Source: Lentisphaeria bacterium
GTDB taxonomy: Bacteria > Verrucomicrobiota > Lentisphaeria > Victivallales > Victivallaceae
Direction: 5' to 3'
Assembly (NCBI GenBank): GCA_017456285.1
Contig: JAFTJQ010000036.1
Location: 1 to 39,665, forward strand
DNA length: 39,665 nt
Shown here in pieces: positions 12,989 to 39,665 of the stretch. Numbering within the stretch: the stretch's first letter is position 1; each line of letters opens with the position of its first letter. The notes beneath the pieces are model-generated. The model was not told where the DNA came from. It was given only the letters and a program-made list of their open reading frames with translations, and made no database searches. A program made the translations under genes and the position numbers.

Positions 12989-13347
12989 AATTATCCTCCT
13001 TCGCCAAAGGCTATGGAGGACAGGGGAATTATAAATTATTGTAGGTGTTGCTCATTAAAGAACGATAAAGTGCGAGCCTGAACGGCTCGTGGCTGGATGC
13101 TTCGTCGCTTCGCTCCTCTGCATGACGGCTATATATTGTGCCACGGAGACAAAGACAAACCAAACTCGTCATTCAGAGCGAAGCGAAGAATCCAGAATTA
13201 TAATAGCAACCACCGCCCTCACGACCTTTCAACGGATTTTTTGAAAGCAGGTGTCGAGATGTGAAAATTTGAAAAATTTTCGCATCTCTTTTGGTCAAGG
13301 TCGCTGACCTTGCGTGGGGGTGTGGGGGCGGCGTTAGTCCCCACAAA
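12937..13347 (+). repeat. Intergenic modular repeat, copy R2
   Basis: This copy begins inside the 3' end of cca and fills the 362-base gap to tsaE. The first part matches R1 (5059-5257), with the CATCCTCCGTC...GGAGGACAGG unit present twice in tandem (12945-12978 and 12991-13023). Then come the AACTCGTCATTCAGAGCGAAG module (about 13163-13197) and a three-hairpin module at 13222-13342. That module contains a near-palindrome GAGATGTGAAAATTT / AAATTTTCGCATCTC, CAAGGTC-GCT-GACCTTG, and GTGGGGGC-(7)-GTCCCCAC. Compared with R3 it lacks about 80 bases between two GAGA direct repeats, as expected from slippage or recombination. Confidence 0.85.
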
Positions 13348-13350
13348 AAA

Positions 13351-26659: not shown

Positions 26660-27026
26660 AGCGATTCCAAACTCGTCATTCAGAGCGAAGCGAAGAATCC
26701 AGAAAAAACAATCATGCTGATTATGGGGACATTCGTACTTTTGTCCTGTCAACGTTTTTTTTGAAAGCAGGTGTCGAGAGGCGAAAACTTTTTAACTTTT
26801 ATGCAATTATTTGCAGGAAGTTGAAAAAGTTGTTGCCTTCGTCCATGAATATGGATAAAAATTTTGAGATGTGAAAATTTGAAAAATTTTCGCATCTCTT
26901 TTGGTCAAGGTCGCTGACCTTGCGTAGGGGTGTGGGGACGGCGTTAGTCCCCACAAAAAAACAAAACTTCGACCAACGAAGTCACGACCTTTCAACGGAC
27001 ACACCATGCCTCCATGCGTCCATGCC
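26660..27026 (+). repeat. Intergenic modular repeat, copy R3
   Basis: It fills most of the 454-base gap between the AraC-type gene and the metallophosphoesterase gene. From left to right: AACTCGTCATTCAGAGCGAAG (26668-26704), GTCCTGTCAACG, GAAAGCAGGTGTCGAGAGGCG, the ~80-base AACTTTTTAACTTTT block missing from R2, then the same three-hairpin module as R2 (GAGATG near-palindrome, CAAGGTC-GCT-GACCTTG, GTGGGGAC-(7)-GTCCCCAC) and a CATGCCTCCATGCGTCCATGCC tail of small direct repeats. Confidence 0.88.
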
Positions 27027-30267: not shown

Positions 30268-30350
30268 TGATAAAAATCAGCGGTGTTGCACGTGAAGTAC
30301 AAAAACACCGACACTCCATGCCTCCATTAATAATTTGTAATTTTTTTTAA
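30268..30350 (+). repeat. Intergenic modular repeat, copy R6 (short)
   Basis: CGGTGTT and AACACCG form a hairpin, followed by CACTCCATGCCTCC and ATTAATAATTTGTAATTTTT, which recur almost unchanged at 33295-33350. Confidence 0.75.
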
Positions 30351-30367
30351 TATTTTTATTTTTTTAA

Positions 30368-30395
30368 TTGATTTTTTATTTTTTTATGTTATATT
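30368..30395 (+). promoter_or_regulatory. Promoter of the structured RNA
   Basis: TTGATT, a 16-base spacer and TATATT. A start near 30403 would coincide with the first base of the 5' hairpin of the RNA. Confidence 0.55.
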
Positions 30396-30640
30396 GTGTT
30401 TTGTATTGAGCAAATTGTAGTTTGTTCAATACAGTTCGTTAACAACCGTTATATTTCAGCAAATATACCCTAAATCCGCCAAATTGAATGTTTATTTGCT
30501 ATAACCTTAGGTGAAGTGTATCTGGTGAGATTGTGTCTACACATCTTGCCGGACGTTCTTTTGCATGGTTATAGCAGGTTCTTGGCGGAACCTAGGGTAT
30601 AGTGTTTTGGGGCGTTCGGTATTTTCTTTCGATCATTCCC

Positions 30641-30696
30641 ATTGCTGGATTTTGCGATAATAAATTGTAAAATCAGCATAGCAATATGATTTTTTT
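30641..30696 (+). terminator. First terminator-like hairpin after the structured RNA
   Basis: ATTGCT pairs with AGCAAT and, inside, GATTTT pairs with AAAATC, followed shortly by seven T (30690-30696). Confidence 0.5.
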
Positions 30697-30712
30697 GTTT
30701 TTTATAAATTTA

Positions 30713-30755
30713 ACAGTCGCAAAATTCAACAAAAGTTTATTGCGGCTGTTTTTTT
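30713..30755 (+). terminator. Rho-independent terminator before the orphan gene
   Basis: ACAGTCGCAA pairs with TTGCGGCTGT (one G-U) and is followed by seven T. It ends 39 bases before the next ATG, so it either ends the RNA or acts as an attenuator of the gene at 30795. Confidence 0.7.
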
Positions 30756-30794
30756 ATTTTTAATCAACAATAATAAACAAAAGAAAGGTAAAAA

Positions 30795-32741
30795 ATGAAA
30801 AAAATTATTATTGTTATTGCATTATTGTTATCGTTTTTTTCTTATGGGAATGAACAAGCGGTACGACGTGTAATTAATCAAGCTTTTGAATCTTTAGCAT
30901 ATGGAGATTATAATGGTTATTTAGAATTATTAACAGAAGATTATGAACAAAAAATCACTTTTGGAAAACAATCAGAAGTTGTTAATTACAATTCACTTAA
31001 AGGAGTTTTTTTAGTTATTTCCGGCAATTGTACGAAAGATACTCTCATAGATTTATGCGATAGCTATAATATTTCAAAAGAAGTTGCAGAAGAAATAAAA
31101 AATAATTATGATCAAGAAGCATTTGATAAATTAGCTGAATCAGTTAAAAAAAGTTACAAATATAAACTTAATACACTTGTTATTAAGAATATAACTGTTT
31201 ATAATGCTCATGCAACTGGTACATATGAATGTAGTGATTTAGAGATAGGTGGTCATAATATTTTTTCATGTAAGGGTATTATGAATTTAAGAAGAGAAAA
31301 TGGTATATGGAAAATAGAAAAAGAAGAATTGTTTATAGAGGCATTTTCAGCACAACAATATTTTATTGATTCAGCACAAATTTTAACCGAAGTATTATAT
31401 GTCTTAGAAAAAACCGGGCGTTTTGATATTGCAGAGAAACAAATTTTAAATTATTTAAATATAGGAAAAATGCCAGAGGAATTAAAAGGTATAGCAAAAC
31501 GTATTTTGGATCTTTGCCAACAAGGCAAACTTTCATTATTAAGTCAAAATGTCGCTAGTGATGAATTCGAACTTGAAACAACAGGAATATGTTTTAAAGC
31601 AGGATATAGTCTAGGCAATTCTATTGCAATGGAAGATCCAATTGCCGCGATATGGGCTATTTATTCAGGAGTTGCAGAATATAGTAAAGCTACCAGCAAA
31701 CATAATCAAAAAATTAAATCTATATATTTGCAATATGAGTATAGATTAAATTCAGATAAGTATGATTTAAGAAATAGCATTACAGAAAATGCTTCTAAAT
31801 ATGGAATTAATTCTGATCAAATTATTACATTTGATGTTTTAGAAGAATTTGAAAAAGTTCTTCCGGAAATTTATAAAAATCCTTCTGTAATTTATCAATA
31901 TATTGAAAAATATCCTTATTATGACAAATTCAAGTGTCATGCCATTAATATTCAAGCAGGAAATAATTATCTGGATTTATTGCCTAGTATTATATTAAAT
32001 AAAAATTCTATACTATTAGTAGATAATAATAAATTAAATATGTGTGCAAAATTATTACAGGATTATACTTTGTCGTTATTGGTAGGCGACAAAACAGAGG
32101 TTGCGTTAAAATTGATGCCTATTTTAATTGAATATGGTCTAAAAAATGGAGGACACTCTTCTCCTGTTTTTTATTTTTATAGAGGCGTAGTTAATTCATA
32201 TGCACAATATTACAAATTAACTAAAATGTCAGAAGATAGTATTTTTAGTGATTTAACAATGAATAAACCATTAGATAATGGTGAGTTTATGCGTTATCAA
32301 TCACTTTGGCTTGCATGTTATATATCTAAATTTTGTAATGATGATTCTTCAAAAAGATTATTAACCATCTATATTAAAGCAGCATTACAGCATTGGTCTC
32401 CGACTACAGTAATGAATGTTAATATATTTAATAGAACAACAGATGCACAAAATGTGTACAAAAAAATTATGGAAAAAAAATGGAAAGTTCGGATTGTGTG
32501 GGGATGGTTTGATGATGATATTGTTTTAGAAAATAATTCTCAAATTTCTCTTTCTAATGTAAAATTGAATGTGACAATATATGATAAATTATCTAATCAA
32601 ACTATAAAAAAAGAATTGAAATGTGATTTGATTGAGGCGGGAAAAACGCATAAATGGGTAGATATTATCTCTATTCCAAACGGGAATGATGATAATGTAA
32701 CAATAAACGCAACATTATCCTGTGATGAGGATAATATTTAA
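30795..32741 (+). CDS. Secreted orphan protein with NTF2-like N-terminal and FxLyD-like C-terminal regions
   Basis: 648 residues starting with a signal peptide (KKIIIVIALLLSFFSYG). Residues ~20-180 read like an NTF2-like domain: helix AVRRVINQAFESLAYGDYNGYLELL, then a strand with MNLRRENGIWKIEKEELF, the typical last strand of that fold. The middle ~350 residues are helical and unrecognised. The last ~90 residues (NNSQISLSNVKLNVTIYDKL ...) resemble a small beta sandwich of the FxLyD type. AAAGAAAGG precedes the ATG. It is more AT-rich in codon use than the glycan genes or adhE, hinting at later acquisition. The position just after the structured RNA and its terminator suggests possible attenuation. 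Function unknown. Confidence 0.75.
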   Translation: MKKIIIVIALLLSFFSYGNEQAVRRVINQAFESLAYGDYNGYLELLTEDYEQKITFGKQSEVVNYNSLKGVFLVISGNCTKDTLIDLCDSYNISKEVAEEIKNNYDQEAFDKLAESVKKSYKYKLNTLVIKNITVYNAHATGTYECSDLEIGGHNIFSCKGIMNLRRENGIWKIEKEELFIEAFSAQQYFIDSAQILTEVLYVLEKTGRFDIAEKQILNYLNIGKMPEELKGIAKRILDLCQQGKLSLLSQNVASDEFELETTGICFKAGYSLGNSIAMEDPIAAIWAIYSGVAEYSKATSKHNQKIKSIYLQYEYRLNSDKYDLRNSITENASKYGINSDQIITFDVLEEFEKVLPEIYKNPSVIYQYIEKYPYYDKFKCHAINIQAGNNYLDLLPSIILNKNSILLVDNNKLNMCAKLLQDYTLSLLVGDKTEVALKLMPILIEYGLKNGGHSSPVFYFYRGVVNSYAQYYKLTKMSEDSIFSDLTMNKPLDNGEFMRYQSLWLACYISKFCNDDSSKRLLTIYIKAALQHWSPTTVMNVNIFNRTTDAQNVYKKIMEKKWKVRIVWGWFDDDIVLENNSQISLSNVKLNVTIYDKLSNQTIKKELKCDLIEAGKTHKWVDIISIPNGNDDNVTINATLSCDEDNI

Positions 32742-32804: not shown

Positions 32805-33350
32805 TATGAATTCTGGATTCTTCGCTTCGCTCTGAATGACGTCGGTTTTTCTTTGCTTTGGTGGCACAGATGAGCCAAACTCGTTATGCAGAGCTTTGTG
32901 ATGACTGACCAAAAGAAGTCAGTGCAAAAAACTTCATGCGAAGCATCCAGTTTATTATTCGTTGTACTTCATCATGCGACACCTGCCGGAAACCATGATT
33001 CCATATGTCAGGTCATTTTCTATGCAGCAGAACATTGATGATTAGGCGGATTGGGTAAAAGTTTTTGAGTCGAGAATTCAACTGTCTGCTATCGCAGACG
33101 GGCGGTGGACGGCAGCATGCTTGCTGCCTTTTTTTCTCAGCCACCGCCTTTTTTTGAGGGTTCTGCACCCTCAAACTCCGCACAAGGTCAGCGACCTTGA
33201 CCTAAAAGATGCTTGCCGCATCTTATCACGCTCACGCACTCGTCAGAGTTGTCGGGGAGTTTAACTCCACCGCAGTCATGACCTGTCAACGGACACTCCA
33301 TGCATCTATACATCCATGCCTCCATTAATAATTTGTAATTTTTTTTAATA
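32805..33350 (+). repeat. Intergenic modular repeat, copy R4 with hairpin array
   Basis: The left end has the CGTCATTCAGAG module in reverse orientation (32809-32841). The right part is a series of short perfect stem-loops: GTCTGC-TATC-GCAGAC (33084), GGCAGCA-TGCT-TGCTGCC (33111) nested in GGCGGTGG...CCACCGCC, GAGGGT-TCTGC-ACCCTC (33156), CAAGGTC-AGC-GACCTTG (33183) and AAGATGC-TTGCC-GCATCTT (33206). The end (33280-33350) has CCTGTCAACGGACACTCCATGC and the tail shared with R6. No gene is present in this 746-base gap. Confidence 0.85.
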
Positions 33351-33386
33351 TCTACGATTTTTTTTGATTTTTTTTGGTTTTTTTAC

Positions 33387-33414
33387 TTGATTTTTTTGTG
33401 ATTTTGATTATATT
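33387..33414 (+). promoter_or_regulatory. Promoter of adhE
   Basis: TTGATT, a 16-base spacer and TATATT, 73 bases before the adhE ATG. Confidence 0.55.
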
Positions 33415-36127: not shown

Positions 36128-36168
36128 GGGCAGTTGCTTAAAAAAAATTAAGCAGCTGCCCTGTTTTT
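36128..36168 (+). terminator. Rho-independent terminator of adhE
   Basis: GGGCAGTTGCTTAA pairs with TTAAGCAGCTGCCC (one G-U mismatch position) and is followed by a T tract, 30 bases after the stop. Confidence 0.92.
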
Positions 36169-36390
36169 GTTGCGGGGACTAACGCCGTCCCCACGCCCCT
36201 ACGCAAGGTCAGCGACCTTGACCAAAAGAGATGCGAAAATTTTTCAAATTTTCACATCTCAAAATTTTTCCTCACATCCGTGAGCGAAGGCAACAACTTT
36301 TTCAACTTTTTGCAATTAAAAATTTGCAGAAAAGTTAAAAAGTTTTCGCCTCTCGACACCTGCTTTCAAAAAAACCGTTGACAGGACGAA
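36168..36390 (-). repeat. Intergenic modular repeat, copy R5 (inverted)
   Basis: The reverse complement of R3 (about 26745-26960): the GTGGGGAC hairpin, CAAGGTC hairpin, GAGATG near-palindrome, the AACTTTTTCAACTTTTT block and the GAAAGCAGGTGTCGAGAGGCG end all recur in opposite orientation. It fills the gap between adhE and the P-loop gene, which converge here. Confidence 0.9.
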
Positions 36391-38930: not shown

Positions 38931-39072
38931 AATAAAATACCTTTTTTGTTTTTTTGTTAAATTATTTTTTCTCTTCAATATCATCGAAAAGCCACTGAGT
39001 TCCAAAACGTTTTTATGAGCATTTGGAGCTCTGCGGCTATCATAATATCTTATTAATTAGCACCCAGTCTTT

Positions 39073-39665
39073 TTAAAGCTGCTCTACCGCCTTGACCGCT
39101 TCGGTTAAATCTTCCTTTACACCATAATCTTCTAACAACAATTGAGCATATGCATTTCCTTGCTCTGCTGCCTTGCGATACCACTTCACTGCCTCGGTTA
39201 AATCTTTCGCTACACCATTGCCATTAGCATAGCAAAGGCCTAAACTTACTTGAGCATATGCATTTCCTTGCTCTGCTGCCTTGCGATACCACTTCACTGC
39301 TTCGGTTAAATCTTTCGTTACGCCTATGCCATCAGCATAGCAATCTCCTAAAGTATATTGAGCCTCTGCATATCCCTGTTCTGCCGCCTTGCGCCACCAT
39401 TTTGCCGCTTCGGCATCATCTTTCGCTACGCCTACGCCAGTTGCATAGAAATCTCCTAAAATATGTTGAGCTATGGCATTTCCTTGTTCTGCCGCCTTGC
39501 GATACCATTTTGTCGCCTTGAGATACCATTTTGCCGCTTCGGCATCATCTTTCGCTACGCCTATGCCATTAGCATAGCAAAGGCCTAAACTTACTTGAGC
39601 ATATGCATTTCCTTGCTCTGCTGCCTTGCGATACCACTTCACTGCTTCGGTTAAATCTTTCGTTA
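39073..39665 (-). CDS. Sel1-repeat (TPR-like) protein, partial at 5' end
   Basis: The frame runs off the right edge; 197 codons are visible. It is built of Sel1-like repeats of about 36 residues with the consensus AAKWYRKAAEQGNAxAQxxLG and xxYAxGxGVAKD. At least five units are seen, several nearly identical at the DNA level (the units around 39138, 39249 and 39600). One unit is irregular: KWYLKATKWYRKA repeats the KWY start within 12 residues. Sel1 proteins are protein-interaction scaffolds. A GTG within the repeat at 39642 is not a credible start. Upstream of the lipoprotein gene by 142 bases. Confidence 0.88.
   Translation of the reverse strand, partial: TKDLTEAVKWYRKAAEQGNAYAQVSLGLCYANGIGVAKDDAEAAKWYLKATKWYRKAAEQGNAIAQHILGDFYATGVGVAKDDAEAAKWWRKAAEQGYAEAQYTLGDCYADGIGVTKDLTEAVKWYRKAAEQGNAYAQVSLGLCYANGNGVAKDLTEAVKWYRKAAEQGNAYAQLLLEDYGVKEDLTEAVKAVEQL

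Follow-up and report, generated by a model that had tools for sequence, protein, structure and literature searches.

A structured RNA family of Lentisphaeria with two competing conserved folds: a candidate cis-acting leader of accessory genes

The RNA locus and its predicted fold

The window analyzed here, a stretch of 39,665 nucleotides from the genome of a Lentisphaeria bacterium (contig JAFTJQ010000036.1, assembly GCA_017456285.1), contains a strongly folded region upstream of an open reading frame at 30795..32741 (plus strand, as are the RNA features described below). This frame, the presumed target of the RNA, encodes a predicted secreted orphan protein of 648 amino acids, for which neither a Pfam match nor, among 77 related genomes, a homologue was found. 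A promoter is predicted at 30368..30395 (-35 box TTGATT, 16-nt spacer, -10 box TATATT) by a consensus scan and by its position within the family. It is followed by H0, a 13-bp 5' hairpin at 30403..30432 seen in the fold, whose sequence varies across the RNA family, and by the conserved core at 30444..30624, defined by a match to the covariance model, the homologues being also found by blastn without any model. Further downstream lie an intermediate hairpin at 30644..30677 and a second intrinsic-terminator-like hairpin at 30713..30755, recognized in the sequence and having counterparts in part of the family; the 13 nt at 30646-30658 in the former could pair with the 5' arm of the latter.

The minimum free energy of 30403-30756 on the plus strand is -117 kcal/mol, compared to -73.5 ± 4.7 kcal/mol for 100 dinucleotide shuffles (z = -9.3), none of which folded as well. 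Folding is also strong on the minus strand (z = -7.9), as is to be expected of any inverted repeat. The RNA was assigned to the plus strand because of where the promoter lies, because of the T-tracts and the genes that follow, and because of the alternation of A-U and G-U in the pairs of homologues, whose minus-strand equivalent would be A-C. A preliminary description of this locus had proposed a strongly folded RNA of unnamed class, to be checked by an Rfam scan and by a search for compensatory changes in relatives. The z-score and the results of both checks given below bear this out, and all helices that it listed (the 5' hairpin, two outer stems, an asymmetric bubble, a 9-10 bp stem and an apical stem) are present in the fold and the sequence. 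Its boundaries, 30403-30756, hold for the folded region, whereas the conserved core is narrower; similarly, T-tracts occur at both of its two terminator sites (30620-30629 and 30713-30755), but the second is a separate hairpin found in approximately half of the family.

Several other repeats were observed in the window. The region 33036-33335, between the orphan gene and an aldehyde-alcohol dehydrogenase gene, is a repeat of about 200-300 bp with about 20 more copies in the genome (80-95% identity), many of them at contig ends. The right end of the window (39062-39665) consists of five tandem copies spaced by 108-129 nt within a minus-strand ORF. Finally, a 155-nt repeat occurs in opposite orientations at 26807-26961 and 36165-36319 (91% complementary, 9.2 kb apart), with related copies at 13256-13350.

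Comparison with known RNA classes

No match to Rfam 15 was found in the whole window at the gathering thresholds, and a permissive scan of 30300-30820 produced only chance-level matches, the best of which was dfrA-dnaX with E = 0.41. In four homologous loci the RNA was likewise not matched, one tRNA being the only Rfam match. Acido-Lenti-1 RNA (RF01687, PMC2864571) is also a structured RNA from Lentisphaerae, but the window copy does not match its model at any threshold used. The 6S covariance model (RF00013) does not match the window copy either. The same model had no match in seven Lentisphaeria genomes (the window genome and six relatives), a result of little weight, as it also misses 9 of 14 control genomes. 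The 6S RNA of Lentisphaeria may be divergent. Among open-licence papers we found none linking Victivallis or Lentisphaerae to such an RNA. The family is uncatalogued.

Distribution of the RNA family

A blastn-type search of 61 relatives identified matches in 24 of them, often in multiple copies, over approximately 30440-30630. The covariance model (R1) was built from 25 of these matches; the window copy, itself a member of the training set, scores 180.8 bits against it (E = 1.2e-43). At E <= 0.001, the model detects the RNA in 83 of the 137 Victivallales genomes searched, with 0-8 copies per genome, and near-complete genomes without it exist in the sample. A class-wide search added one positive family (two genomes), and in a sample of the phylum the model had no match outside the class Lentisphaeria. 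When 84,980 species genomes were scanned with an exact pattern, the matches came from Lentisphaeria, among them the isolate Victivallis vadensis DSM 14823 (copy on QEKH01000025), and from one Thermoguttaceae bin; an exact motif pattern had no match in viral contigs. The RNA is nearly confined to Lentisphaeria, and the family has well over 100 members.

Another copy in the window genome (G000:C8:14308-14507) is divergent. The contig binned as Thermoguttaceae (Planctomycetes) carries a copy that scores strongly (167 bits; L112, positions 2248-2425), possibly because of transfer or mis-binning.

Fold A: the rod

The core can form a rod (fold A, 30465..30600) of four helices: P1 (30465-30472/30593-30600), P2 (30476-30482/30582-30588), P3 of 9-10 bp (30497-30506/30567-30576), and P4 (30521-30531/30543-30553), which forms the apical stem at 30521-30553. 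RNAalifold, applied to the MAFFT alignment, did not recover P1 and P3, as their variable arms are out of register there. These two helices were instead examined in an alignment-free way, by comparing the pairing of each copy's own arms with that of swapped arms in the 76 copies with locatable flanking motifs. The own-arm scores of P1 and P3 (20.7 and 22.7, or 8.7 and 9.8 bp) far exceed those of swapped arms (10.2 ± 0.35 and 10.9 ± 0.37), and pairing is kept among 60 distinct 5' arms of P1 and 69 of P3. P2 is paired in 99% of copies with exchanges between CG and GC and between AU and GC, and P4 also covaries, the apical stem appearing in the minimum-energy structures of 90 of 96 copies. Compensatory change thus proves the rod P1-P4, a receptor-like conserved structure of the kind expected in a riboswitch or attenuator.

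Fold B: a competing structure

A model-free scan of all column pairs of the MAFFT alignment first revealed a different set of complementarities: TATATTTCA/TGAAATGTA, GCAAATA/TATTTGC, and a 13-bp stem ACCGGACGCTTC/GAAGCGTTCGGT ending at a T-run. In the window these form a 5' hairpin (30444..30524), in which TATATTTCA (30450-30458) pairs with TGAAGTGTA (30512-30520), and GCAAATA (30459-30465) with TATTTGC (30493-30499), with an optional helix between ACCG (30445-30448) and the 5' strand of P4. They also form a terminator-like stem (30549..30629) of CCGGACGTTC (30549-30558) and GGGGCGTTCGG (30609-30619) followed by a T-rich stretch (30620-30629). A small hairpin AGGTTC/GAACCT (30576..30593) holds the 3' arm of P2 in its loop, and a loop-loop contact in fold B is possible.

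Both parts of fold B covary. Among 100 copies, 12 of the 16 pairs of the 5' hairpin and all seven pairs of the terminator stem have changed on both sides (75 cells versus 15.9 ± 6.1 and 62 versus 19.7 ± 8.6 in shuffles, respectively), in an alignment (A4) fitted to fold B, so that the counts lean to this fold, and with P2 absent from the model. The preliminary description did not include the competing fold, which is an addition to that picture.

GCAAATA overlaps P1, TATTTGC overlaps P3, and CCGG is common to P4 and the terminator stem, and because of these overlaps fold B is incompatible with the whole rod. Two partners for the same bases kept through evolution are the mark of a switch, and a terminator stem followed by a U-tract and incompatible with part of a second conserved fold is, as far as sequence can tell, the arrangement of an attenuator. 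On average, the rod is approximately 18 kcal/mol more stable than fold B, whose helices occur in just 2 of the 96 minimum-energy structures; fold B would thus have to act before the rod is formed or be held by a factor. In minimum-energy structures of prefixes of the window transcript, the 5' hairpin appears at a length of about 100-110 nt and persists up to 170 nt; prefixes of about 180 nt or more contain the rod.

The same complementarities could be read as tertiary pairing in a compact pseudoknotted RNA, in which the rod is kept and both the 5' and 3' flanks, indeed complementary to the P3-P4 internal loop, pair with this loop, a strong bend at the asymmetric bubble bringing them near. However, the helix GCAAATA/TATTTGC covaries despite occupying bases of P1 and P3, and the full terminator stem has CCGG in common with P4, which makes such a static structure quite unlikely. 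Even less credible is the idea of a mobile repeat, inserted with its promoter in front of genes that it does not regulate through the RNA fold. It would account for a dispersed multi-copy family with unrelated neighbours, for several copies at contig ends, and for the common extra flank with GCAA repeats present in some of them, but the dozens of compensated P1 and P3 sequences and the two covarying folds indicate selection on RNA structure, and an unsystematic look noticed no transposase or target-site duplication.

Promoters, terminators and gene orientation

The window promoter, already claimed in the preliminary description, is weak on consensus score alone; its position agrees with that in the family. 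The best promoter scores of family members exceed those of sequences with shuffled bases, and the end of the -10 box mostly falls 30-65 nt ahead of the core, which suggests that the copies tend to bring promoters of their own at this distance. The 60 nt upstream of the core fold with a family mean of -14.7 kcal/mol (-9.2 in shuffles). A T-run immediately follows the terminator-like stem in nearly all copies. A further terminator-like hairpin is found within 330 nt in 41 of 92 copies, compared to 3-9 in shuffles and to 12 of 83 further on. The evidence for an alternative, antiterminator-like pairing of this second terminator is weak (18.2 for own versus 16.2 ± 0.6 for swapped sequences), and we make no family-wide claim. 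A 102-bp AT-rich block occurs both before the leader (30315-30416) and before the dehydrogenase gene (33313-33414) with 73% identity; it may be a species-typical promoter module.

Neighbouring ORFs were compared for 98 copies. Downstream, the closest ORF shares the strand of the RNA in 79 cases and lies on the opposite strand in 13, whereas the upstream ratio is 50:43; ORFs were called by a simple longest-first rule, and several of the 13 opposite-strand ones look spurious. A location 5' of a gene on the same strand is that of riboswitches and attenuators. The own promoter, the same-strand bias downstream and the random orientation upstream argue for a cis-acting 5' leader. Thus, the element previously described as an RNA between two genes is better understood as belonging to the downstream gene, as a 5' leader capable of two alternative folds. 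An attC or integron-type element was also considered, and was ruled out by the random upstream orientation and the conserved apical sequence.

The overall shape had been compared to 6S RNA, and the RNA could be a stand-alone small RNA, 6S-like or trans-acting, that has a promoter and tandem terminators to itself and precedes the gene only incidentally. Like 6S RNA (RF00013; 6S-flavo, RF01685), it is a rod of approximately 180 nt with a large asymmetric central bubble; a promoter, a U-tract and often a second terminator of its own would suit such an RNA, and 6S RNA is unaccounted for in the seven Lentisphaeria genomes searched with the poorly sensitive model. In contrast to 6S RNA, it has no Rfam match, retains a conserved alternative fold, and keeps a fixed orientation to the downstream gene (79:13, versus 50:43 upstream). 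Its copy number, patchy at 0-8 per genome with near-complete genomes lacking it altogether and only 83 of 137 positive, differs from the one or two copies of a housekeeping 6S RNA. In the window, the gap between the second terminator and the start codon is about 40 nt, which leaves little if any room for another promoter and makes expression of the target from one unlikely. We therefore reject the likeness as an identity and consider a stand-alone RNA unlikely.

Downstream genes

The genes following the RNA encode AIDA-type adhesins, glycosyltransferases, WYL regulators, Mrr and GmrSD nucleases, a caspase-LRR protein, a trypsin-like protein, Sel1 and zinc-ribbon proteins, a permease, a GDPD enzyme, and many proteins without a family; PADLOC families are matched by single members. 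Their Pfam families reveal no common pathway, and this diversity does not point to a ligand. Targets sharing a pathway are typical of metabolite riboswitches, but not obligatory for attenuators. The common theme is accessory genes, not a pathway. The targets are on average AT-richer than their neighbours (40 of 55, p = 0.002). An excess of signal peptides, predicted by a simple rule, is not significant (25% versus 15%, p = 0.085), and an all-against-all comparison of ORFs detected no shared neighbour gene of the mobile element or toxin-antitoxin type.

Behind the leader, six or seven of the copies (L035 8006-8458, L038 1-491, L126 2001-2500, L127, L131 and L146) have an additional conserved, ORF-like stretch of approximately 220 nt, MRMITATTAFKMP...SANEVSASKQAS. 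In L035, L038, L126 and L131 it runs into (GCAA)n with 5, 9, 13 or 23 units, where several contigs stop. Such loci look like phase-variable contingency loci.

Very long adhesin or glycosyltransferase genes and AT-rich genes are typical targets of processive antitermination. Both occur among the targets, the adhesins of AIDA type being very long, and the RNA could accordingly resemble the put and EAR RNAs, which also precede adhesin- or polysaccharide-type genes with terminators downstream: polymerase modified by the leader would pass terminators behind it and inside long or AT-rich acquired genes. The structure of put and EAR differs from that of the window RNA, and no homology to them was seen. 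Moreover, many of the targets are short single genes, and the element ends in its own terminator-like stem with a conserved competing fold, which a put- or EAR-like RNA does not need; we thus regard processive antitermination as improbable.

A possible regulatory mechanism

Taken together, the data suggest that the RNA is probably a cis-acting 5' leader in which the choice between two folds decides whether the following gene is transcribed; a transcription attenuator or a switch resembling a riboswitch is the most likely type, not a stand-alone RNA of the 6S type. Transcription would start near 30403, and the 5' hairpin of fold B would form as the first 110-170 nt or so emerge. If it persists, CCGGACGTTC would be free to pair with GGGGCGTTCGG before the U-run, and the resulting intrinsic terminator would keep the gene off. 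If the rod is formed, it would break the 5' hairpin and bury one strand of the terminator in its apical part, allowing read-through. The decision between the folds would presumably depend on a cellular signal, such as a small molecule, a protein, or a change in polymerase pacing.

Several observations argue against a leader switch: the stability advantage of the rod, which makes fold B dependent on kinetics or a bound factor; the targets without a shared pathway, unusual for a metabolite riboswitch; and the second terminator in about half of the copies, which would also suit a stand-alone RNA with fail-safe termination. Among the nearest known systems are the orphan riboswitch and leader candidates of the Breaker-Weinberg type with a terminator platform (reviewed, for example, in PMC7266159), which likewise have a structured 5' leader with a conserved core, competing terminator and antiterminator pairings, and a downstream gene on the same strand. 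The window RNA differs from them in matching no catalogued class, in having targets without a pathway, and in being nearly restricted to Lentisphaeria. It would be an attenuator- or riboswitch-like leader in kind and a new class in detail.

Lentisphaerota are common gut and rumen bacteria, and to our knowledge almost nothing is known about their gene regulation. We tentatively propose, with considerable reservation, that the family may be a phylum-specific class of switch RNAs that places dispersed accessory genes (adhesins, surface polysaccharide, defence-like and orphan genes) under a single common signal, which may be a novel signalling molecule or direct control of the polymerase, with some loci coupled to phase-variable (GCAA)n repeats. 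As the targets have no common pathway, a simple end product is an unlikely signal. With a cultured host (V. vadensis DSM 14823), more than 100 members and two covarying folds, the mechanism and the signal are directly testable, and the latter could reveal a global regulatory input.
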